Source: Buxus sempervirens (Eukaryota > Streptophyta > Magnoliopsida > Buxales > Buxaceae). From it: a DNA stretch of 64,000 bases. The DNA lies in contig OX387187.1 in assembly GCA_947561395.2 (NCBI GenBank), forward strand, positions 20,751,829 to 20,815,828. Reading direction: 5' to 3'. Below the pieces are notes generated by a model. That model made no database searches. It saw nothing but the letters and a program-made list of their open reading frames with translations, and was not told the origin of the DNA. Shown here piece by piece: positions 8,991 through 62,395 of the stretch; the stretch's first letter is position 1; each line of letters starts with the position of its first letter. Both the position numbers and the translations under genes were made by a program.

Positions 8991-11036
8991 CGCCAGGTTC
9001 GCGGATACCCCCTGCGATTTTCAGTTCTCTGTAAATTCGAGATCTATAACTCTGGCTGGTTTGTTTCGGTCTGTTATTGCTCCAATACCCTCCTAATACT
9101 CCCAGAAGACTTCCCAACCATATTTGGATTTAATCTAAACACTTTTAATTTCAAGATAAAATTCAATCTTCGACTCTGTTTCATGTCATTCCAGAAAACC
9201 AGAAAAAACCAGAAAACTCATACATCACTTAAAATACAAACCATGCATAAGAATAAGCTCACGAAAACATCAAACACAAAACCTAGTTGTAAATCAGTGC
9301 TACTCACATGAATGCGCTTATTCCAGAATATAGCAAAACCTCGGCCGATCACCACTCCGGCCACGCACGCGAGTACAGAATCTACCCAAACAATTCGTCT
9401 CGAGCAGAGAGAAATAACCCACTCAACTTCAACTCCAAAATCCGTCTCTTACCCCTTGCGATGCTTGTTCTTCACGAGCAGAGCCCTAATCGCCACTCCA
9501 GCCGAAATCGCTCACTTCCTCTGATATCCAGACTAACGAAAATGTTTCCGTAAGTATAGTACGCGTATTCTCATAAACCCCAAAACCCTACTTACCTTGA
9601 TACATACGCCGCTCGATCCCTCTCCCATTTCCTTGATCCCATGCACGCTGGCCCACTGAAAAATCCTACATGTTCCGGCCACTTAGGTTAACAAGTGCCC
9701 AAGCTATATATATATTTTTAATACTAATAATAATATAATTTTCCAGAAAAATGGCTATATAACGCCTGTACATACGAGTATGGGCTAAGCCCTCAAACCA
9801 CAAAAAAATCACCTGATAAACACAGTTTATATATCAAAATAAATAACTAAATAAATAAATAACTCACCAAAAAATCGGGGTCTTACAACTAGAACCATGA
9901 CGTTCCTATCTCTGAAGCTGATCACTGTCTCAGGATTCGGCTGATAAGTGTCAGGCCATCTCACCTGATCATCCTGGAGAGTACCCAAGAAAGTGAACCA
10001 ACCCTGCTTGCCGCTTTGGATGTTAGGACACCCCCGGTTGCTCATCAAAACAAGAACCTTCATTCTTGTAGAAAAGCGTCAGTCTATCATCTCGATCTGA
10101 CTCAGGTGGTCAAGTAACCAAAGCTGCAAAAAAGGGGAAGTATTTCAAGTTATTTCCAGTAATTTCAATGTCACAAGTAAGCTGTAAAAAAAAAGGGTGG
10201 GGAAACCAGATTTTACCTGTAGGATAGGGGCACATGCAAGAAAGCGCTTCTTCTTCCTGAAATAGCAGTCAGTCAGGGCTTGGTATATCTCTGCCAAGAT
10301 CATAGGGGCTAATCTCTCACGCTCCTTAACCTGGCATATGATTGAGATGAGAGCCAAGTCAACCTTGTCGTCATCCCGTGGAAAAAGTAATTGGTTAACC
10401 ACTATCGATGTCAAGGCATTAAACCGAGTTTGCGGGTTTTCACTCCTTAGAAGTTTTTCAGTCAAAAAAGTCTTGGATAGGGTCAGCAATGTGTCAGAGT
10501 CCCCTAGGTCCTTCTTCCCTATACTCAAAAAAAGTGGAAGCTTCTTTTTTGTAGCTAAGCTTAAGTGGTGGGTTCACCACTTTCTCTGAAAACCTCAAGC
10601 TAAGGATCGTTTCAATTTCCTTAACAGTCGGGGTCATCTCCTTATCACCAAATCGAAAGAGATTCAATTGAGGTTCCTAGTGTCCAATCAAAGCCTCAAT
10701 GATTTCTCATTTAAAAGGGATGGTAAGGATGAGCAGGATATGACCTAAGTTGGTAAAATCCCACTGGATATCATCTTCATGGATTATGGAGTTAACCCAC
10801 CTATTATAGAATGAATCTACAATGTTGTATCTAGTGAGATTATGGGGTTTTGATCTAAATGGTTGTGTTGCAGAGGAAGCTTCATGGACAAAAGATAACG
10901 GTGTGGAAGACTATTCGAAAGCCATTAGGGAATGATTGGAGCTTGTTGGAATCAAGTGGAGGGAGAAAAAAACGAAGAAAGGGAGTTTGCTAAACTCAAA
11001 AAGACGTCACAATGACGCACATCCCGAGATCCTTGT

Positions 11037-11044
11037 ATTTTATA
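11037..11044 (-). promoter_or_regulatory. TATA box upstream of the antisense DUF7745-like frame
   Basis: TATAAAAT on the minus strand about 110 bp upstream of the first DUF7745-like codons near 10930. The palindrome array 11057-11198 begins exactly 12 bp upstream of it. Confidence 0.55.
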
Positions 11045-11056
11045 CTCTGCTTAAAT

Positions 11057-11198
11057 ATATCCGACATCTCAATTTGGATACAAATATAGTTTTTTATATC
11101 TGACATAATATTTCGGATACAAGTAATATGCTGTGTATCCGAAATCTTATTTCATATATAAATAAAGCTTGCATTTGCCAACCTGTTATTTCGGATAC
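11057..11198. repeat. phased palindrome array, 25-nt modules every 39 bp
   Basis: Four 25-nt modules start at 11057, 11096, 11135 and 11174, an exact 39-bp period with 14-nt spacers. Outer arms are variants of GTATCCG and CGGATAC; the third and fourth modules keep one perfect arm each (GTATCCGAAAT, ATTTCGGATAC). The same module and period occur in LTRs at 35828, 40103 and 58603. Confidence 0.9.
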
Positions 11199-11199
11199 A

Positions 11200-12554
11200 T
11201 TAAAAAAAAAAAAAGAAAAGCATGAAAAATTCAAAAAAGAAATTCCCTGTATTAACTGTGCATATCTCATAATTGTAAAAAATGGAAAGAAAAGAATAAG
11301 ATACCCTCCTGATCCACTCGTCGTAGTCCCCAACTACCGTAAGTCCCTCTGCATCCTTCCATTGATCAAAGTGGTCAACATCGAACTCGGGCAGGAGGAT
11401 GATAGGACCAACGGGAAGAGGATGAACTGGAATACGAGGTACACCAGTGTGCTGATAGTACAGTCGCTCGCCTAAATACATAACCCTACCAAGTCTCCCA
11501 AGGAAACACTGGTAGGGCTGACGTCAGAGATCTCGATCAAAAGCATCCTGTACTATAAGCTCACGAGCAACCCCGTCATCCACATCCTCAAAGCGTGTTA
11601 ACAAGAGCTACAACAAAAGAGGAATGTCAGGTATAAACGAGGCATGGAGGAAAGAGACAAGAGATAAAGGGTGAAGGAATTTTACGTCGGATCGTCGAGA
11701 ACAGTCCAAGTGAACCCGAGCAGAACGGAGCTAACTCCTATCTGCATGCCTATCAAGCACGGACCACCGTATAGCTACAGGGAACTCAGCAGCATCAGGC
11801 ACAGGGGATGGACGAAAATATGTTACGTAGGTATACATGAATATCTAGCAAAAGAGAAATCAGTCAGGGGTGGAAAGATAAAATTTTGGAATAAAATAAA
11901 GCAAATGCATTCAATACCTGTAAGATTTGCCAGAAAAAGCGGCAGCTAACACCATCTCCCCTTGGAGTAGCCAAACCTCGGATGGCTCGGCATAATCCGG
12001 CTAAGATAGTCCCGTATATAAGCCGACCCCATGCTAGCTGCATAGTCTGACAGAAGTCTCTCAGGGCATCCAAGAAGAGAGGACTAACCACAGTTGTGTC
12101 CTCCTAGAAGAGACAGCTCCCGAGCATCAGCAAGAAAATATGCCGGAATAGTAGTGCAAAGTCCTCATCCTCCCCGATAATGGTCGCATGCCTCCCACCA
12201 AAGCGATCAGTAAGGCTATGGTGCAGCCAGCTGAGAGATCCGGCTGCTCCTCCCATCCTAGGCATCGTTGGGTAAGACCTCATATCCCAGGAGAGAGTTA
12301 ATCCTTGCATTAGAAGGCTGATCCATCACGATAGTCCGCCCCACCAAAGGGATGCTAGTGATCATAGCAAAATCAGAGGGACGAATCTTAAGCTCGACAT
12401 CTGGCAAATGGAAGGACTGCGTATCAGGGAAATATTGCTCCATCATGGCATAAATAAGAGGGCGATCAGCTTGGAATGATGGAATGAGGACGAAGTGGTT
12501 GAAGTGGCACCGACTAAACTCTCGTCTAAGCGCGGGAGAAAGCATCCGAATCAT
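11200..12554 (-). pseudogene. plant mobile domain (PMD) protein remains
   Basis: Minus-strand segments at 12258-12554 (LIYAMMEQYFPDTQSFHLP, then a GRTIVMDQ block), 12104-12310 (FALLFRHIFLLMLGSCLF, the hydrophobic helix of PMD), 11864-12091 (LAWGRLIYGTILAGLCRA, matching the family's 'aWG.a.la.LyraL' block) and 11200-11481 (YLGERLYYQHTG). Together they follow the order of the aminotransferase-like plant mobile domain, which in plants occurs in host MAIN/MAIL proteins and as cargo of Mutator-like and gypsy elements. It lies on the same strand as and upstream of the DUF7745-like frame. Reading is not continuous; broken copy. Confidence 0.7.
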
Positions 12555-12860
12555 GGTTTATCGAGAGATATTGCATAAACTGTGTTTTCACCGAATCATG
12601 CATGTGTTGCTTACTGAGACATTCGTCTCACAGTTGCTTTCTATCTTATTTTTCAGATCCATCAACGTCCGGTGTGAAGGACCGGGCTGGGGATAGAGGC
12701 AATTATAAAACTATAGGGTATAGAGAGGAAGACTACTATAGGCCCTAGGATTTTCTTTTGTTAGTACATGTATAGTTTTGAATGGTAAAACCTTCACACT
12801 TGAGAGGGGTGAGTAGTCACCCAATATTTTGTAACCAACTCTCATGTTTCATTTCATTTC

Positions 12861-17183: not shown

Positions 17184-17766
17184 TGTTAGCACTTGATTTT
17201 TGCACCCTTTAAAATGCAGAAAATAAAAATTTCAATTAAAAAGTCAAACCCTGAGGGGGTAAAAAAATTTGACTTTTTGATCCAAGAAGAATTGGCCATC
17301 AAACTTCCTCTCTTTGAAAAGAGCATTCCGACACGGTTCCAACGCAACCGAGTTTGCTGGAATTAGAGTCCAGATGAGAAAGTTATGAGTTAGTCAAACT
17401 TTTGAGGGAGTGAAAGTTGACTTTTTGCTCGACCCTAATTCAACTGCCCAATTTGATCCCATTGGATAGAGCGTTCTGAGCTGATTCCAACGACACTAAG
17501 TTTGCGGAAATCGAACATCGGATAAAAAAGTTATGGGCAGTTGAAGTTTCAAGAAAGCTGCCCATGTGGCAAAACAGTAGCAAAAAAGCAGAATAAATGA
17601 ATAAAATAAATAAAATAATTGTTTATAGAAAATATTTTAATTTTTAATAATATTTTAATAAAAATCTAAGATTTTTTAATATAATAATCAATAAAATCGG
17701 AATCAAATCTTAATATAAGTCAAATTGAATAATGGGTTGAAATCCAAACATTTAAAAAACATGCAT

Positions 17767-17916
17767 GACCGTATTTTAAATGCGGCCAAGGCACGACTAC
17801 ACTTAAAATGCGGTCATGGCCTTCTAGAAGCGGGACATGCGTCCTGTACGGCAACAGCTGGTGGATTTGGCGTGATTTCGCGCACATGGGCGGCCGATCG
17901 CATTTCAAATGCGGTT
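17767..17916. repeat. 21-nt palindrome modules (upstream array)
   Basis: Modules at 17767-17787 and 17795-17815 are 28 bp apart (7-nt spacer), and a third lies at 17896-17916, off that phase. The arms are variants of GACCGCATTT and AAATGCGGTC. Confidence 0.85.
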
Positions 17917-18744: not shown

Positions 18745-18849
18745 AACCGTATTTGAAATACAGTTCAGGCATGACTGTATTTGATATATGGTCTGGCTTG
18801 AACCGTATTGTATTTACGGTTCAGACTAGACCGTATAGTGAATGCGGTC
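18745..18849. repeat. 21-nt palindrome modules every 28 bp (downstream array)
   Basis: Four modules start at 18745, 18773, 18801 and 18829, an exact 28-bp period with 7-nt spacers CAGGCAT, TGGCTTG and CAGACTA. Arms are variants of AACCGTATTT/AAATACGGTT and GACCGTAT/ATGCGGTC, the same word as the upstream array 1 kb away. Confidence 0.93.
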
Positions 18850-25131: not shown

Positions 25132-28100
25132 ATGAAGAGTAAGGATGGCAAACAGGGGTCTAACCCTGATAAAGGTTCTAGGATGGTCCCCATGGCACTG
25201 ATGTTTGTCGTCCTTTGTGGGTTTTCATTCTATCTTGGTGGTATCTTCTGTTCTGAGAAGAACAAATTTGCCACCGCAAATGTCTCCAGACCAGTTCAGT
25301 CTACTAAAGAAGTCGCATCTGGGCCTCTTCAAATCAAACCTGTGGTGTTTCCTGAGTGCAGCAGTAATTATCAGGACTACACACCATGCACTGATCCAAA
25401 GGTATTCTAATGTAACTGGATGTATTCTTTCATGTGCTCTTGGTTATCTGAGCCAAGGGTGAGTGTTTGCAAACTTGTCACATTGAAGCCATTTTTGGAT
25501 TTCATTACAGAGGTGGAAGAAGTATGGTGTACATAGACTGACTTTTATGGAGCGTCACTGTCCTCCAATTTTTGAGCGGAAGGAATGCATTATTCCTCCA
25601 CCAAATGGTTACAAGCCACCGATTAAATGGCCAAAGAGCAAGAATGAATGTTGGTACAGGTAACGTTGCCTATTTGTGATCTTCATTTTACTTGAGTTTC
25701 TGGGAGAAATTGCTTAGATGAATATATCTGTAAATCACCATGTGTATTATCTGTAAATGATTTCAGAAATGTTCCCTATGATTGGATTAACAAGCAAAAG
25801 TCTAATCAGAACTGGCTGAGAAAACAAGGAGAGAAGTTTCTCTTTCCTGGTGGAGGGACCATGTTTCCCAAAGGAGTTGGTGCTTACGTTGATTTGATGC
25901 AAGATTTGATTCCTGAAATGCAGGATGGTACCATAAGAACTGCTATTGATACAGGATGCGGGGTGAGTTTCATGTTTCGATCTTTCTTCAGAAAATTGAT
26001 AATTTGGCACCATACTTTACTGATGCACATATTTTGTGCTGCACAGACTAATCACAAAATGCCACTTCAGAATTGGTACTTTTGGCTCTTTACCGTAATG
26101 ATGCCTGCTGTTATCACATTAGAACAAATGTTTCAAATCTGTCTCTCCTGTTAGGCAATTCTAGAGTTGTATAACCTTTTGTAATTTCATAGCTTTTTAT
26201 GCGTATCATTGTGATGTTTAATCTAAAGTCTGACATTGATACAACTGAAGTAAATTTAAGAATAGAGAAGAATTAAAAGAAAATGTTACATTGCTATGTT
26301 AAGAATTGCATGCTGGAGTGATGGTTTTTCGAAAATGGTCGAAAGGAATATTAGTAAGGCAACCACGTTCCCTCAGCTTTTGTTGCCTATCTTGTCAACA
26401 TGACCAAAAGAAATATCATCTGTAATACAGGATGATATGCTAAGATAGTTAAGACAGGTGGCTGTTTTTTTCTATATTCTTTAAGATTTACTTAAAGATT
26501 TCTTATCTCTATAGGTTGCAAGCTGGGGAGGTGATTTATTAGATCGTGGCATACTGACTGTTTCTCTTGCACCAAGAGATAATCATGAGGCTCAAGTCCA
26601 GTTTGCACTTGAACGTGGTATTCCAGCAATCTTGGGTATCATCTCTACGCAGCGGCTTCCTTTCCCCTCCAAGTCATTTGACATGGCTCACTGCTCAAGA
26701 TGTCTCATCCCCTGGACAGAATTTGGTAATTTCATCCCATGTTACTCTTGTTAGTCTTAACTGGATGCTTGAAATTAATTACGTAAAATAGTTGTGAATA
26801 CTTTAGTTTGGATTTGCATCTAATGTAAATTTGAGTTGAGATCCTAAAATTTTGTGAAGACAGATCTTTCACTGATCTGTTATATTTCTTTTGGGGTTGG
26901 CTTGAAACATATGGTGATCAGTTGATAGAAGGGATTTTGCAGTATCTTATGCTCAGAGCTGTCACAATACTCCACTGCAGTAGGATAAAAAATCTTCAAA
27001 ATGATATTGTGATTGACTGTAAAGAAAATTTGAATTAGATGGCACTGGTTGTCTGTTTGGATCAATTTCTTCCAAGAAATTTTATAGTTTTGACAGGTGT
27101 GTCTTATCTCACTTGCATTTGCATGTCCATATGCTGTGGTCAGGTTACTTATTTAAATCTGTTACAAATAGATGTCCATATTGTCATTCCGTAAATAAAA
27201 TTAATTAGGATTTCTGCCTACTAATAATTAGTTCTCATTTTCCACTACTTACTATTAGATCTCTCCTATTTTCAGGTGGAGTCTATCTTCTAGAAATACA
27301 CCGGATACTCCGTCCTGGAGGCTTCTGGGTCCTATCTGGGCCACCAGTTAACTATGAGAACCGGTGGCGGGGATGGAATACAACTGTGGAAGAGCAGAAA
27401 GCAGATTATGAGAAGTTGCAGGACCTACTGACTTCCATGTGCTTCAAATTATACAACAAAAAGGATGACATTGCTGTGTGGCAGAAATCTTCAGATAATA
27501 GCTGCTATGATAAGCTTGATTCCCCAGATGTGTACCCGCCGAAGTGTGATGATGGAACTGAACCTGATGCAGCATGGTACACCCCACTACGTCCTTGTGT
27601 TGTTGTTCCATACCCAAGGTTTAAGAAGTTAGGGCTGAAATCCATTCCAAAATGGTCTGAGAGGCTACATGTTGCCCCTGAAAGAATTGCAGCAGTTCAT
27701 GGTGGGAGTGCCAGTACATTCAAGCATGATGATAGCAAATGGAAAGTGCGTGCAAAGCATTATAAGAAACTGCTTCCAGCTATTGGAACTGATAAGATAC
27801 GGAATGTTATGGATATGAATACAGTTTATGGAGGCTTTGCTGCAGCGGTAATCAGTGATCCTTTGTGGGTTATGAACGTTGTCTCTTCCTATGCTGCTAA
27901 TACACTCACCGTCGTCTATGACAGGGGGTTGATAGGGACTTACCATGATTGGTAATTTGAATTCAAAACATTTCATTACTTATAAATTGTCCATAGTTTT
28001 CCATGTGTATTCTAGCAAACCAAATCTTGGAACTTTCATGGTTGATGCTACATTCATATATGGCATTCTTGATACTTTATATATATCATATGCATGATAT

Positions 28101-35827: not shown

Positions 35828-35969
35828 CTATGTATCCGGTTGGACCGGATACACACAAGTTCTAAGGTAACCGACCGTGAAGGTCGGCTACACACACAAG
35901 ATAGTGTATCCGACCTTCAAGGTCGGTTACACAGCAGTCTCAGCTGATCCGACCTAAGTTGTCGGATTA
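35828..35969. repeat. phased palindrome array, 25-nt modules every 39 bp
   Basis: Modules end-aligned at 35828, 35867, 35906 and 35945 (exact 39-bp period). Arms include GTATCCGGT/ACCGGATAC, CCGACC/GGTCGG, TCCGACCTT/AAGGTCGG and TCCGAC/GTCGGA; 14-nt spacers begin ACA in all three cases. Confidence 0.92.
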
Positions 35970-38162: not shown

Positions 38163-40102
38163 ACACCAAAGATTCAAAAATATGCAAAAATAGCCAAAAG
38201 ACAAATTCTAGGATAAAAATAACCCTACTTGAAAATCAAATCCAGAGATGGGTAAGGGGATTAGATTATGAACGGGGGAAGGTGTTAGGCACCCCCATTC
38301 ATCCACATGAAGTGGTTGCCAAGTGTATGTTCATGCTAAAATAAAGTAAGAAAGCTTGCTAAAAATCATGAAAAAAAAGCCTTGAAAAAGGAACAAATGT
38401 ATGATATATTCACATGAAGATCTAAATGGATTCTAGATCCTCTCTCATGTCAATATCATTTCTGGAATATCTCAAAAGATGGAAATCAAAGCTCAAGTTG
38501 CTCAAAACCAAGTTAAATCAAATCCGGAAAATTCGGTAAAAAGTAAGGTCCTTTGTTTTGAAATCATTCAAATCCAATTTCAAATTGATTCAAACCAACT
38601 CTAGTTGAAAGATTATGATAAATGAGGAGCTCATGCAAAATCTCAAGTTAATCCGATAAAAATCCTAGGAGTTATGCTCCTTTGAAGTTGCTGCTGGGGA
38701 TTTTTAAAAGTGGTAAGTGGGCAACTTTGGAAAATTGTCTAGAAAAATCCACTACACAAAAGTCTACGAAATTTGGTGTGATTGAAGTTTGTATGGCCAT
38801 CTTTCCATAGAAACTAGTCTCATACAAAAATCCCTTCGGATGTGCCTTGGGTGGTCTCCCGAACAGGCCCCGAAGATCACAGATTTACCCAGAAAAGTAC
38901 AAATGAATAGTTCTGAGTAAATCGGCTACCAATAATTCAAATGGAATCCAAAAATTATGAAACTAACTGGATTTGAAAATAGACTCATAAAGGAGTACTC
39001 AGAAATAAAAACCACTCGAATCGGACTTAAAACGAACACATGGCGGTCCGTCGAAGTGACAAGTTCTGTACTTGGACCTGAACTATCCACTTAACTTCGA
39101 CAGAGAAGTGTCAAAAATCGGCTAGATAGAAATTCATGAAATTTGGTGGACATAAACTAGACAGTCTCACCTTTCCCATGGTTCTAGAATCGCCCCAAAA
39201 TTCATCCGGATGATGAAGTTACGGACGTCCGAAGTAAGGGTACAGGTGCTGTCAAGCTAAGCCACTTTTGAAGAAAATCAAATCCGAAAATTGACAAAGT
39301 GTGTGAGATTCGTGTGATATGAATCCAAAACCTTTGAAAAACATTTGAAAACACTCCAGAATTGATTTAGGCCATTTATTTGAGTTTTATCACAATAAAT
39401 GCAATAAATCCCAAATATGAGCCTATCCCGCCAAAATAGTGATATGTGTGCAAAAGTGAAAAAAACCAAGCAAGATCCATACACATGCATATAGATTCAA
39501 CAAAATAGGTTCTAGCATAGCCTAGGGTTCCGTTCCATTATCGTTTCCCTCTGTTCTCTTTAAGATAATCAAGGGTACTTTGAATATGGAACGGTTTACA
39601 ATCAATCAAAAAGGCCTTATGCTACATAGGTTCTAGCACTAAGGTCAATCCCCAGTCTCGTTTCTCCTAGATCCGCCTTCACGTTTTACGGCTAGGGGAG
39701 TCTTGAGATACTTTGAGCCGGGGAAGGATTTCCACACATACAAACAAGGCTTTACACTACAGAAAGGTAGAAGAAGAGATCTAGATCTAGGAATGTAAAG
39801 ACAGAAAATAAAAAGAAAAGTTGAGGCTTACCTGAGTGCTGGAGGCGATTCCACAGCGGTTTCCTTCTTCTCTTGGAGTTCTTCTTTGCGAGAATTCAAA
39901 ACAAGAGTTGTGTGCCATTTGCTCAAGGAGGAGGCTCCTATTTATAGGAAAGGGCTAAGGTCATTGGTAGACACAACTTAATGTCTAGAACCCCTCCAAC
40001 CTAAACCCTAAGGTTATTTCCGCGATTTCCCCTCATTTAATGAGGGACATGATGGTAAAAGTGAAAAGCTCTCGGAAAACCCTAATTTTGAGCAAACTTA
40101 AG

Positions 40103-40244
40103 GTATCCGGTACATCAGACCGGATAACAAAGGGCCTTAAGGTATCCGATACATGGTATCGGATACGCTAAGGCTCACACGTATCCGGTATGATTATCCG
40201 GATACGGGGAGGAGCACTTATATCCGGATTGAGTATCCGGATAC
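40103..40244. repeat. phased palindrome array, 25-nt modules every 39 bp
   Basis: Modules start at 40103, 40142, 40181 and 40220, an exact 39-bp period. Arms TATCCGGT/ACCGGATA, GTATCCGATA/TATCGGATAC, GTATCCGG/CCGGATAC, TATCCGG/CCGGATA. Spacers CAAAGGGCCTTAAG, GCTAAGGCTCACAC, GGGGAGGAGCACTT resemble those at 58603-58848. About 160 bp upstream of the TATA in LTR orientation. Confidence 0.95.
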
Positions 40245-40346
40245 AGGCAAAAATTTATTTTCTTCAAATTCTGTGCTGGCCTTCCAGGAGATAATGATTT
40301 TTGATGATTGTTTGTGCAATTTGGGGTGTCTACAGGGACATCAATC

Positions 40347-40391
<45 letters not shown>

Positions 40392-41426
40392 TGCATGAAG
40401 GATGCCCATGGGGGACATCAATCATGAGCAAATCTTGATATCTGTGGATTGGTCCCTAATACTTTTGGATATTTACAGATTGGTCCTTGGGATATTTTCC
40501 TGCGTTTCTTGCCACGTGTGCAGACTTTTGCCACGTGTGCAGTTTTCTGACACTGCTGCTCTAGAACTTCAACTGCTTACATCTTCTTCATCCGAACTCT
40601 GATTCAGGCAAACTCAATTGCGTTAGAACCGTATCGGAGTCCTCTATCCATTGGCGTAGGGTTAAGCAGTTGATTCGGGGTTTAGCAGAAAGTCAACTTT
40701 CGGCTCCCCCTCAAGTTTGACCGGCTCATAGATCCTTCATTCGGACTTCGATTCCAGCAAACTCAGTTGCGTTGGAACCGTGTCGGGGTTTTCTATCCAA
40801 TGAGATAAAGCAAGGTTACAAATTATCACTTGATCAAAAAGTCAACTTTTCACCCCTTAGGGTTTGACTTTCTGTCTAGGGTTTGCATTTCCGGGGGCGC
40901 AAAAATAAGGTGCTTACAAATAGTTTTACAAGGGAGTTGAAGGCAGTTCATGAAGTGGATTGGTTGTGCACTAACTATTTCCCGGATAAGAACCACTTTT
41001 ACCATTTGAGACAGTAAAGAAGCCTTCCAACTAGCCAACCTTGTAACCATTTTATTGATCAGATCCTAACAATCTTTAAGCTGGGGCTTGTGGGAGAGAA
41101 TAGGTATGCCTAGATATTTAGCTGGGGATTTACCAATGAGGATATCCAAAGTTTTGATGATTTTAATTCTTGCCTGACTCCCAGTAGTCTAACTAAAATG
41201 TAAGGTAGATTTTTTCTTGTTGATGGATTGTTTAGATTCTATGCAGTATTTGTGCAAGATTCTTGCCAAACTATGCACTTGTCTTTCCTTACCAAGACCA
41301 TACAAATAAACATCGTCAGCATTGTAGACACCCCAAATTGCACTACAAAATGAGAAAATAATGGAAAATATGTAATTGGGATTTGAAACAGGCCAAAAAT
41401 GCATGAAATTCAATAATTTGAGCCTT

Positions 41427-41531
41427 GCCCGTATTGTATCTACGGGCTGAGCGCGCCCGAATTTTGTATACGGGCACGCAGCGCCCATAATACATACACG
41501 GACACCACTTGCCCGTAATACATTTACGGGC
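41427..41531. repeat. phased palindrome array, 21-nt modules every 28 bp
   Basis: Modules start at 41427, 41455, 41483 and 41511 (exact 28-bp period; 7-nt spacers TGAGCGC, ACGCAGC, ACCACTT). Arms GCCCGTA/TACGGGC and GCCCG/CGGGC; the third is imperfect. Confidence 0.94.
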
Positions 41532-58019: not shown

Positions 58020-58602
58020 TGTAAGCACCTCATTTTTGCGCTCCCCAAAAGAGCTGGAAATGCAAAACATGGACAAAAAGTCAAACCCTGATGGGTCAAA
58101 ATTTGACCTTTTGATCAAGTGAAAATTGGCCACCTTGCTTTATCTCAATGGATAGAGAATCCCGACACGAGTCCAACGCAACTGAGTTTGCAGGAATTGG
58201 AGTCCGGATGAGGGTTCTGCGGGCGGTCAAACTTAGAGGGGAGCCTAAAGTTGACTTTTCATCGAAACCCGTGCCAGGTGCTTAGCTCTATATCATTGGA
58301 TAGAGGGCTCCGATACGAGTCCAACGCAACTGAGTTTGCTCAAATCGGAGTCCGGATGAAGGAGATATGAGCTGTCGAAGTTTCCGCGTAGCAAAACCGG
58401 AAACTGCACACGTGGCGCAGGAACTGCCCACGTGGCAGCCAACGCAGCAAAATATCACGGGGACTAAATCTTAAATATCCAAAAATCACTAAAAACCTCA
58501 GGGACTAAACCAAAATTCGCAGGGGGCGATCCGTAGATATCCAAAAGTGTCAAATCGGTCGAATCGATCAAGTCGAAGGGCAAATCCGTAATTTTTTGAT
58601 TT

Positions 58603-58848
58603 GTATCCGGTCAAATATGCTGGATACACATACCCTTGTGTATATCCGGACTCAAATGCCGGATACAAAAAGATTTTCGTGCGAGATTCGCGCCGATCGC
58701 TTGACAAATTCGCGGCGGCGTTTAATTTTCGAATGATCATGTTTTGTATCCGGCATTCAATGCCGGATACAAAGGAGCACCTGTGTAACAGGCCATGAAG
58801 GCCGGATATGAAGAGGGCTTAGTGTATCCGGCCTGAGTTGCTGGATAC
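58603..58848. repeat. phased palindrome array, 25-nt modules, 39-bp steps
   Basis: Modules at 58603, 58642, then 58746, 58785 and 58824; steps are exactly 39 bp within each group. Arms GTATCCGG/CTGGATAC, ATATCCGG/CCGGATAC, GTATCCGGCATT/AATGCCGGATAC, AGGCC/GGCC(GGATAT), GTATCCGG/CTGGATAC. The last module ends 12 bp before the TATA box. Confidence 0.95.
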
Positions 58849-58860
58849 ATTAAGTTTGTC

Positions 58861-58869
58861 TATAAAAGG
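58861..58869 (+). promoter_or_regulatory. LTR TATA box
   Basis: TATAAAAGG, 12 bp after the last palindrome module. Confidence 0.75.
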
Positions 58870-60275: not shown

Positions 60276-60339
60276 TGATCCGGCAACTCAGGCCGGATCA
60301 CCTAGGGGTTGTGTGTATCCGGCAACTAAGGCCGGATAC
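60276..60339. repeat. second palindrome pair of the same LTR, 39-bp step
   Basis: 25-nt modules at 60276 (TGATCCGGC/GCCGGATCA) and 60315 (GTATCCGGC/GCCGGATAC), about 1.4 kb downstream of the first array and 1.0 kb from the LTR end. Confidence 0.95.
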
Positions 60340-61305
60340 ACGATAAAACATGCAGTTTTATGTTTTTGCTGATCCTTGGCCGAATTTTGTGATTGTTTAA
60401 CCAAACCAAGTGAACCAATAGGGTTTCCAGGTCACCCGGAAACCCAACTTCCACAGACCCAACTTGGAACATTTGTGGGCCTTCCAACGGGGCCCACCAA
60501 GCTTGATAAACCCTAAAGCATGCAAAATGAAAAAGTTAAGCAAAATAAATTGATCGAACCAGGCAGGCCAAACCCAATGCGGCCCACCCGAACCTTGATG
60601 TGCAGAGTGATATTTCAATTGCGTGGTTTGGCCGAGACCCAGGGCAAGGGCCTCTCGGGCCCACCAAAGCCCATTAACCAAACCAAGTGAAGGGCTCAAG
60701 CCCTAATTTCATGGAATTTGGGTTTTCAAACCCAAAGCTGGACTATGGGCCCCAAGCCCAATGTCCAACTCACCTTGGTCAATTTAAACAAGATAATATG
60801 AAAGTACTTTGGCAACCGTCATGGGGGCCCACCCAGGGGCCCGCAAACCAATGCCGACCCATCCATTGCATGAAAATCACTAAGTTTGCAACTTGAACAA
60901 ACTAAGTAAAAATAATTCACTTCACCCAAGTTCGAAGGGCCTCCTAGGACTAGACAGAGGCCCACCAAGGGCACATGGGCTCTCCCAAGCCCACCAAGGA
61001 CACCGTGGGCCTTCCAATGGGGCCCACCAAATCCGATTCAGATCATCTAAATAAGCAAGATAAAAGAAATTAAAGGGACCCACACCACTCAGGTGGTCCC
61101 GCCAGACTTAACCCAATTGCATATCGGATTAGGAATCGGGTGAGACCAAAGCAAACTGACTCAAACCAGGGAACCCACGGGACCCGTCATTTGACGGGGT
61201 GGACTGGGGTGTCTACGGACTTCCCCAGACTGCAACCGAGAACCAACTTAGAATCTCAAGCCGCAGACCCAAAGCCCAATAGACAAAGATGAGGCACCCA
61301 GGTGT

Positions 61306-61337: not shown

Positions 61338-61377
61338 GAACTTTCCCGTGCCGCGTTTCCCACGCGCGCACAGATAT

Positions 61378-62395
61378 GTTGGAGGTACTTTAGTTATATA
61401 AAGGGGTACCTTAGCTGTATAAGGGAATGTACCTTAGGTTAAACAGTGGGGGTTTACCTTACTTATATAGGGGTTACTTTAGTTAGACAAAGGGGGTACT
61501 TTGGCTATATAGGGGGGTGTACCCTAGGTAAAACAGTGGGGGTACCTTACTTATATGAGAGGAGTACTTTTAGGAAATACAAGGGGTGTACTCTAGGTAA
61601 TATAAGGAATGTACTTTAGGTATGTTAGAGGTACTTTAGTTATATAAAGGGGTACCTTAGCTGTATAAGGGAATGTACCTTAGCTAAACAAGGGGGTATT
61701 CCAAGTAAGACAGTAGGGTACCTTAGTTAAAATAAAGGGACACCTTAGGCAATACAAGTGAGGTACCTTAGGTATAATAGGGGGTACTTTAGGTATTCGA
61801 ATGGGGTACCTTAGCCAATATGAGTGAAGTGCCTTGGGTAATACAAGGGGATACCTTAGGCAAACACAAGGGGGATACCTTAGGCAAACACAGGGTTACC
61901 TTAGGTAAATGCAAGGGGATACCTTAGGTAAACCTAGGGGTACCTTAGGCAATTAAAGTAGGGTACCTTAGGTGAAACAGTGGGATACCTTGGGTGTACT
62001 TTGGGCATACCATGGGAGTACCTTGGGTAATACTTAGGTGTACCTTAGGTATACAATGGGGTACCTTGAGTAATACTTGGGGTGTACTTTGGGCACACAA
62101 TGGGGGTACCTTAGGGATACAAGTGGGGTATCTTAGGTAAATCAAAGGGATACCTTAGGCAAACATAGGGATACCTTAGGGATATAAGTGGGGTACCTTA
62201 GGCAATGTGAGTGAGGTACCTTGGGTAACACTTGGATGTACTTTGAGTAATACATGGGGGTACTTCGGGTAATACATGGGTGTATCCTAGGCATATTTGG
62301 GTGGTACCTTGAGTAATATATAGGTGTACTTCTAGTGTTAATTGATAGGGTACCTGGGGTATACTTTGAAGGTACTTTAGGTACACTTAACTCTA
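61378..62395. repeat. minisatellite, right part
   Basis: About 1 kb of 18-30 bp units built on GGGGTACCTTAGGTAATACA with frequent substitutions; TACCT-T-AGGTA is itself palindromic. In LTR orientation the whole minisatellite is upstream of the TATA at 57557. Confidence 0.92.

Follow-up and report, generated by a model that had tools for sequence, protein, structure and literature searches.

What are the short palindromes that recur at fixed distances in the retrotransposon-rich DNA of Buxus sempervirens, and which protein, if any, reads them? The question arises from a 64,000-nucleotide stretch of contig OX387187.1 (positions 20,751,829 to 20,815,828), hereafter called the window. A preliminary description of its letters had reported palindromic modules of 25 nt repeated every 39 bp and of 21 nt repeated every 28 bp, and had compared them to binding sites for a dimeric protein or to a set of short hairpins. 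We refer to the two kinds of array as the 39-class and the 28-class, and we follow them here from the window to the whole genome.

Geometry and abundance of the palindrome arrays

The array from which the question starts (58603..58848, forward strand) is of the 39-class and occupies the U3 region of a long terminal repeat (LTR) of family B. It consists of modules at 58603 and 58642, a middle segment, and further modules at 58746, 58785 and 58824. The module starts given in the preliminary description were recovered with small corrections, the modules at 58785 and 11174 being decayed. That all starts of this class lie 39 bp apart also held, except in the array at 35828, whose first unit, a 21-nt palindrome at 35832, has its centre 37 bp from the next.

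Both classes are built on CCG-N11-CGG, that is, on two facing CCG cores 14 bp apart. In the 39-class (GTATCCG-N11-CGGATAC), GTAT precedes the core and neighbouring modules are separated by 25 bp core to core; in the 28-class, G[A/C] stands before the core and TA after it, and the corresponding distance is 14 bp. These flanking letters and the core distance between modules are what separates the two classes. Because the loop is constant and the distance between modules is 25 or 14 bp, the geometry corresponds to one size of putative dimer site at two stacking distances, which differ by 11 bp, or about one helical turn. The 11-bp difference between the two periods thus reappears in a sharper form, with cores 14 bp apart within a dimer site and 14 or 25 bp apart between such sites. 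A third module type, AACCGT..GCGGTT, found at loci L020, L028 and L035, also follows CCG-N11-CGG and mainly recurs at 28-bp steps; at these loci its modules occur both upstream and downstream of DUF7745 genes.

A motif-free scan of the window for strict palindromes gave 39 bp as the commonest spacing, with four pairs, above all of 100 dinucleotide shuffles (at most two pairs at any spacing, with a mean of 0.02 at 39 bp). The same scan of the window showed no peak at 28 bp, whereas the genome-wide counts given below bear out the 28-bp period. When distances of 3-90 bp from CCG to CGG were counted in the window, 14 was the most frequent (21 pairs, compared with 3.2 on average), 17 of them inside the listed arrays. 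From CGG to CCG, the top distance was 25 (14 against 3.6).

Genome-wide counts were taken over all 676.5 Mb (247 contigs), with each pattern read backwards as the control. The pattern GTATCCG-N11-CGGATAC, for which a genome scan had been proposed, has 30,553 exact copies (reversed control, 0), and its arms with any loop of 1-30 occur 30,971 times (control, 47), so that the loop is exactly 11 in about 98.7% of 39-class palindromes. The gap between modules of this class is 14 in 16,882 cases (control, 0) out of 18,603 with a gap of 1-30 (control, 25), part of the remainder being gap-27 readings of the same modules. Among the first 50 places listed for the 39-class, the 29 pairs of neighbours within 200 bp lie at steps of 39 (22 pairs), 78 (four), 77 (two) and 103 bp (one). 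For the 28-class, GNCCGTA-N7-TACGGNC was found 22,358 times (control, 9), and TACGGGC-N{1,30}-GCCCGTA, which spans the gap between modules, 7,962 times (control, 121); this gap is 7 in 48 of the 50 listed places and 6 in the other two. The preference for 28- and 39-bp steps therefore extends across the genome.

In the genome stretches that were read, which were picked for their modules, another module stands 39 bp away from 45 of the 47 exact ones; four modules are counted twice among the 47 (L001, L011), and some elements contribute both of their LTRs. The only module offsets between 26 and 89 in those stretches are 39 (35 cases), 77 (1) and 78 (20). Among IMG/VR viral contigs, the 25-mer occurs in 83 stretches, nearly all with a single match; among the 81 modules of 80 such stretches, a single one has a neighbour 28 or 39 bp away that matches even loosely, in 9 of 14 letters. 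Because the palindromes in this set are almost always solitary, it was used as a negative control.

Host elements and promoter placement

The array carriers are LTR families of Ogre/Tat-type retrotransposons. In one element, the sense frames (L006) hold Retrotrans_gag in one frame and RVT_1, RT_RNaseH, RVT_3 and rve in another, which correspond to the reverse transcriptase, RNase H, second RNase H-type domain and integrase of an Ogre/Tat gag-pol. Antisense frames of the same element (L007) carry DUF7745 (E 7.1e-19) together with PMD behind the internal array and, upstream of the DUF7745 frame, PMD again (6.3e-14). PMD (PF10536) exceeded the cut-off in antisense frames of L007, L008 and L010, as in the extra PMD-coding ORFs of Ogre. 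At the position of the primer binding site (PBS), the sequence TGGCGACTCTGCTGGGGA occurs at L005:6504 and L015:6696, and it would presumably pair with tRNA-Arg. The arrays, previously ascribed to unrelated elements, thus sit in LTR families of a single kind of retrotransposon. A family C LTR of the 28-class has its U3 interrupted by a 39-class element at L005:3981-4249.

Ogre/Tat elements are described with the features seen here, namely long LTRs, a gag-pol with a second RNase H-type domain, extra ORFs with PMD, and antisense genes between pol and the 3' LTR. Of Ogre elements, 57% contain PMD (PMC6317226), and the text searched on these extra genes gives them no role (PMC6317226, PMC9289625). 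Accessory genes that run antisense from a promoter of their own are known in the Tat lineage, for example in Grande (cited in PMC11963269, which also mentions HBZ). Palindromes are absent from the searched text of PMC6317226 and appear in that of PMC11963269 only in the title of one reference.

Several LTRs and genes in the window show how the arrays are placed. The LTR of the 58603 array begins with TGTAAGCACC, and its 5' part (58020..58420, forward strand) is common to the LTRs at 17184 and 40918 (the latter on the reverse strand). Its TATA box, TATAAAA (58861..58867, forward strand), lies 12 bp past the last U3 module, and a second array of two modules at a step of 39 (60276..60339, forward strand) follows about 1.4 kb downstream of that box. 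The sequence beside this second array matches, in inverted orientation, the sequence beside the array at 35828..35969 (reverse strand, step 39), which is of the downstream LTR type; an earlier reading that placed the latter in the same LTR as the 40103 array was corrected. The U3 array of family A (40103..40244, reverse strand, four modules at a step of 39) belongs to an LTR that starts at 40334 and has its TATA box at 39946. A long degenerate array with a 22-23 bp unit (GGGTACCTTAGG...) at 61372-62331 adjoins an LTR end.

On the reverse strand, a 39-class array of four (decayed) modules (11057..11198) stands ahead of a DUF7745 gene, with a TATA box, TATAAA (11039..11044), 12 bp past it. Downstream of both lies the DUF7745 frame of this broken gene (10148..10573, reverse strand; PF24924, E 3.6e-9). 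A weak PMD frame (12261..12557, reverse strand; PF10536, E 2.2e-5, below the curated cut-off) represents the upstream antisense gene. The Pfam domain scan covered 112 of the 149 frames with a length of 70 aa or more. Methyltransf_29 frames at 25696-27952 apparently mark a host gene amid the elements. The 28-class is represented, always on the forward strand, by a U3 array of two modules in a family B LTR (17767..17815, with an extra decayed module near 17897), by four modules in the downstream part of the same LTR (18745..18849), and by four modules in the U3 of a family C LTR (41427..41531) that starts with TGTAGACACCCC at 41323.

Beyond the window, we surveyed twelve 10-kb stretches chosen from pattern matches on one contig. 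Arrays of two to four modules were present in 11 of the 12, and they were located in LTR U3 regions, internally in antisense orientation, downstream of the PBS and, as a pair, ahead of the 3' LTR. The expectation that the arrays belong to LTR U3 regions was therefore correct as far as U3 arrays were found and too narrow in that arrays also occur in the promoters of antisense DUF7745/PMD genes, in downstream parts of LTRs and after the PBS. An earlier assignment of the array at L005:8017 to the LTR was likewise corrected. CpG reaches 0.064 per base in U3 arrays versus 0.019 in the window, about 3.5 times denser.

The distance to the TATA box is exactly 12 bp past the last module in the LTR with its box at 58861, in the DUF7745 promoter of the window and at L007-L010. 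At L047 and L049, compared by eye, the last 28-class module ends 14 bases before TATAAA, and the distance from array to TATA box is 156 bp in LTRs of family A. The TATA motif of the DUF7745 promoter, GCTATAAATGCAACC, has 689 copies genome-wide (control, 0), 610 of which have a module arm at exactly the promoter distance. A further search for DUF7745 genes used a promoter-free query, beginning at the ATG; 137 matches, near-copies of one family, were scored of 8,334 candidates. Of these matches, 29 fall on C1, C2 and C3:1-13.2 Mb, the range covered, and as near-copies of one family they are not independent events. A module and a TATA motif exactly 12 bp apart precede 26 of the 29 by 104-106 bp; in one, the TATA motif occurs by itself, and in the last two both exact motifs are missing.

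The two modules ahead of the 3' LTR form the promoter array of the PMD gene. A module pair was present in the PMD gene promoters of all four stretches read, with TATAAG 9 bp past the modules in L007 and L010 and without TATAAG in L008 and L009. Since the 39-class stands before the LTR, before the antisense DUF7745/PMD gene and before the second antisense PMD gene, the three promoters appear to form one regulon. The elements whose LTR and gene promoters could be compared in this way are all of the 39-class.

DUF7745 lineages and exchange of module class

To relate the arrays to the proteins, we built a small tree of 15 DUF7745 frames, in which the 9 array-bearing frames (partly near-copies) are split from 6 array-less frames (a sample of 27) by a branch with support of 100/100. 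Within it, the four internal 39-class genes (L007-L010) group together (100/99), and neither the label 39 nor the label 28 forms a single clade. A tentative match of class to protein is drawn from these nine array-bearing sequences, several of them near-copies. Among the best 30 DUF7745 loci, 27 are without a paired array, most of them of a different lineage, so that DUF7745 alone is not a predictor of arrays. A looser look at five loci added L039, a related DUF7745 gene whose promoter carries a 28-class array of the GCCCGTA type. The second lineage (about 498 aa; most of L017-L046) often has open frames and is without palindrome arrays nearby, and a general link between DUF7745 and arrays was rejected for it.

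The two LTR families with arrays of different class had been described as sharing no other obvious upstream sequence. This does not hold for the LTRs of the 58603 and 17767 arrays, which have about 400 bp in common upstream. Family B LTRs share their first ~400 bp at about 57-82% identity (60-column windows; 58020 LTR versus L050), and their promoters follow one plan: two modules, a middle segment with GCGAGATTyGCGC, three modules and the TATA box. Part of this plan has been lost in the L048 and 17184 copies. The class nevertheless differs within the family, the 58020 LTR being of the 39-class and L047-L050 and 17184 of the 28-class, as judged by alignment for L048 and L050 and by eye for L049. 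The code of the putative regulator can thus probably switch.

Candidate regulator and rival explanations

Judged from sequence, the arrays are probably tandem operator-like sites for a dimeric, sequence-specific protein. The rigid loop and gap, the likeness of the half-sites and the position upstream of TATA together give them the look of tandem dimer sites: the same conserved half-site occurs on both arms, at fixed spacing and near a promoter. The comparison with a dimeric protein made at the outset gains accordingly from the constancy of the 11-nt loop, from the similarity of the half-sites and from the 12-bp distance to TATA. Each palindrome would be one dimer site, CCG-N11-CGG with class-specific neighbouring letters, and these sites would be stacked at a fixed core-to-core gap of 14 or 25 bp upstream of TATA.

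As for the protein, that one class precedes both the LTR and two genes of a single element makes the element's own products the lead candidates, and we consider the chances evenly balanced that the regulator is among them. The DUF7745/PMD product of the element would bind its own arrays and control its own element family, by activating, un-silencing or limiting it. A comparison of the candidate protein with solved structures gave no significant match. We lean slightly towards the reading as a whole, that is, arrays of dimer sites that form one regulon with the element's own DUF7745/PMD product as putative regulator. More tentatively, the system may be one of self-recognition, in which an antisense DUF7745/PMD dimer reads stacked CCG-N11-CGG sites in all promoters of its element, and lineages escape each other by a joint switch of protein, letters and step (14 or 25 bp). 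Such joint switching is suggested by the class exchange seen inside one LTR family.

The tandem layout, and the finding of a module flipped between copies, could also point to a functionless, minisatellite-like tandem duplication. We compared modules within arrays in 81 pairs from 16 39-class arrays, hand-picked for register and with some arrays, among them near-identical LTR partners, excluded; identity between modules of one array was 0.90 in the arms, 0.41 in the loops and 0.36 in the spacers. The corresponding values for the 28-class (13 pairs, 3 arrays) were 0.80, 0.52 and 0.25. Arms that are alike beside loops and spacers that are not indicate that the arrays are not recent duplicates, and the near-random spacers agree neither with one recent tandem duplication, which the preliminary description had named as a possible source, nor with the whole-unit likeness of a minisatellite or satellite. 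Given also the constant loop across 30,971 palindromes and the same plan repeated in separate promoters, this origin is scarcely credible. An RNA or single-strand hairpin, acting in packaging, priming or stability, would explain the near-perfect dyads, and arrays in downstream parts of LTRs or after the PBS would be present in RNA; however, the arrays of DUF7745 promoters and LTR U3 regions lie upstream of TATA. Sense-strand arm mismatches at positions 2-8 show no bias of G-T over A-C in U3 (5/4), downstream (1/1) or DUF7745-promoter arrays (2/2), and the excess pooled over positions 1-11 (25 G-T, 11 A-C) stems from positions outside the core. At positions 2-8, half-sites also resemble each other between palindromes about as much as within one, and covariation within palindromes is in small excess at positions 4, 8, 9 and 11 only. 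The hairpin reading offered earlier is thus very improbable.

The main rival to an element-encoded regulator is a transcription factor of the host, such as a dimer of the MYB or GARP type, whose sites several retrotransposon lineages would have recruited as enhancers. The sites are present in all three LTR families (A, B and C), and TATCC in the 39-class and AACCG in one variant recall what we take to be MYB cores. Plant LTRs have moreover been described with sites for host factors (PMC11656987). However, the class, letters and period of whole arrays change together within one LTR family, and the same class also stands before the element's own antisense genes. A host factor is compatible with both observations and is the less likely reading. 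The CpG density of U3 arrays, together with the action of host PMD proteins in transposable element silencing (PMC7156037), would also suit arrays that are targets of host silencing or insulation and not of an element regulator. Sites harmful to their carriers should be lost, whereas tens of thousands retain their exact spacing, and we regard this alternative as improbable.

Among LTR copies themselves, the seven of family A differ by 0.153 in loops, 0.197 in spacers, 0.055 in flanks and 0.043 in arms. In these copies, the arms show no extra conservation relative to the LTR flanks (74 of 401 shifted masks were equally low); the idea that arms change more slowly than flanks was dropped, the initial flank value of 0.173 having included DNA outside the LTR. 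Loop variation is in part an exact in-place inversion of the 25-bp module (L010 versus L005, L007, L008 and the window copy). Between L010:9833 and L008:9630, for example, the module is reversed in one LTR copy and the spacers are not.

By analogy, the nearest known system in logic is that of VANC and VANDAL, an anti-silencing system in which the protein binds its motif and removes methylation. VANDALs are DNA transposons. In those of Arabidopsis, VANC proteins are associated with motif arrays (PMC5735166, PMC10398659), and the element's own protein reads short tandem motifs in the element's non-coding DNA, as is proposed here. Motifs of VANDALs differ between related elements and change together; likewise, the arrays here are short, tandem and non-coding, and differ between related elements. 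The VANC paper (PMC5735166) names DUF1985, and the motifs have 8-9 bases, whereas the present case involves LTR retrotransposons, DUF7745/PMD and rigid palindromes that keep a fixed period and lie upstream of TATA boxes. DUF1985 was absent among the Pfam matches of the scanned frames, which contained DUF7745/PMD instead, and the main text of PMC5735166 mentions neither palindromes nor dimers.

A second parallel concerns the host PMD proteins MAIN and MAIL1. Genes with the DOWN motif in their promoters require them for expression (PMC7156037, PMC9899485), which also ties PMD proteins to a common promoter motif. DOWN, which is CATGCAGTTT in the MORC1 promoter, is not the array motif, and direct DNA contact is unproven there as well (PMC7156037, PMC9899485). 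One copy of CATGCAGTTT lies in the window at 60349-60358, 9 bases past the 60276 array; a single copy is at chance level, and we dismissed this proximity as meaningful.

In the literature searched, a set with most subscription journals and preprints outside it, there was no account of such arrays and no mention of DUF7745. If DUF7745/PMD proteins bind the arrays, the function of a domain of giant retrotransposons becomes testable with short, defined probes, and the result would bear on the host relatives MAIN and MAIL1, for which DNA contact is posed as a question (PMC9899485). LTR retrotransposons would then also join the VANDAL transposons in regulating themselves sequence-specifically, with a clean geometric code and tens of thousands of dimer sites across one host genome.

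Two more distant systems resemble parts of this arrangement. HTLV-1 has 21-bp repeats in its U3, which bind host CREB together with Tax, and an antisense gene, HBZ. The likeness, which implies no homology, is threefold: repeated sites precede the TATA box of an LTR, the regulator (here putative) is encoded by the element, and an antisense nuclear gene is present. Gal4-type sites, CGG-N11-CCG, are bound by fungal Zn2Cys6 dimers; their CG-rich triplets are also 11 bases apart, and those of the arrays (CCG-N11-CGG) are turned the opposite way round.
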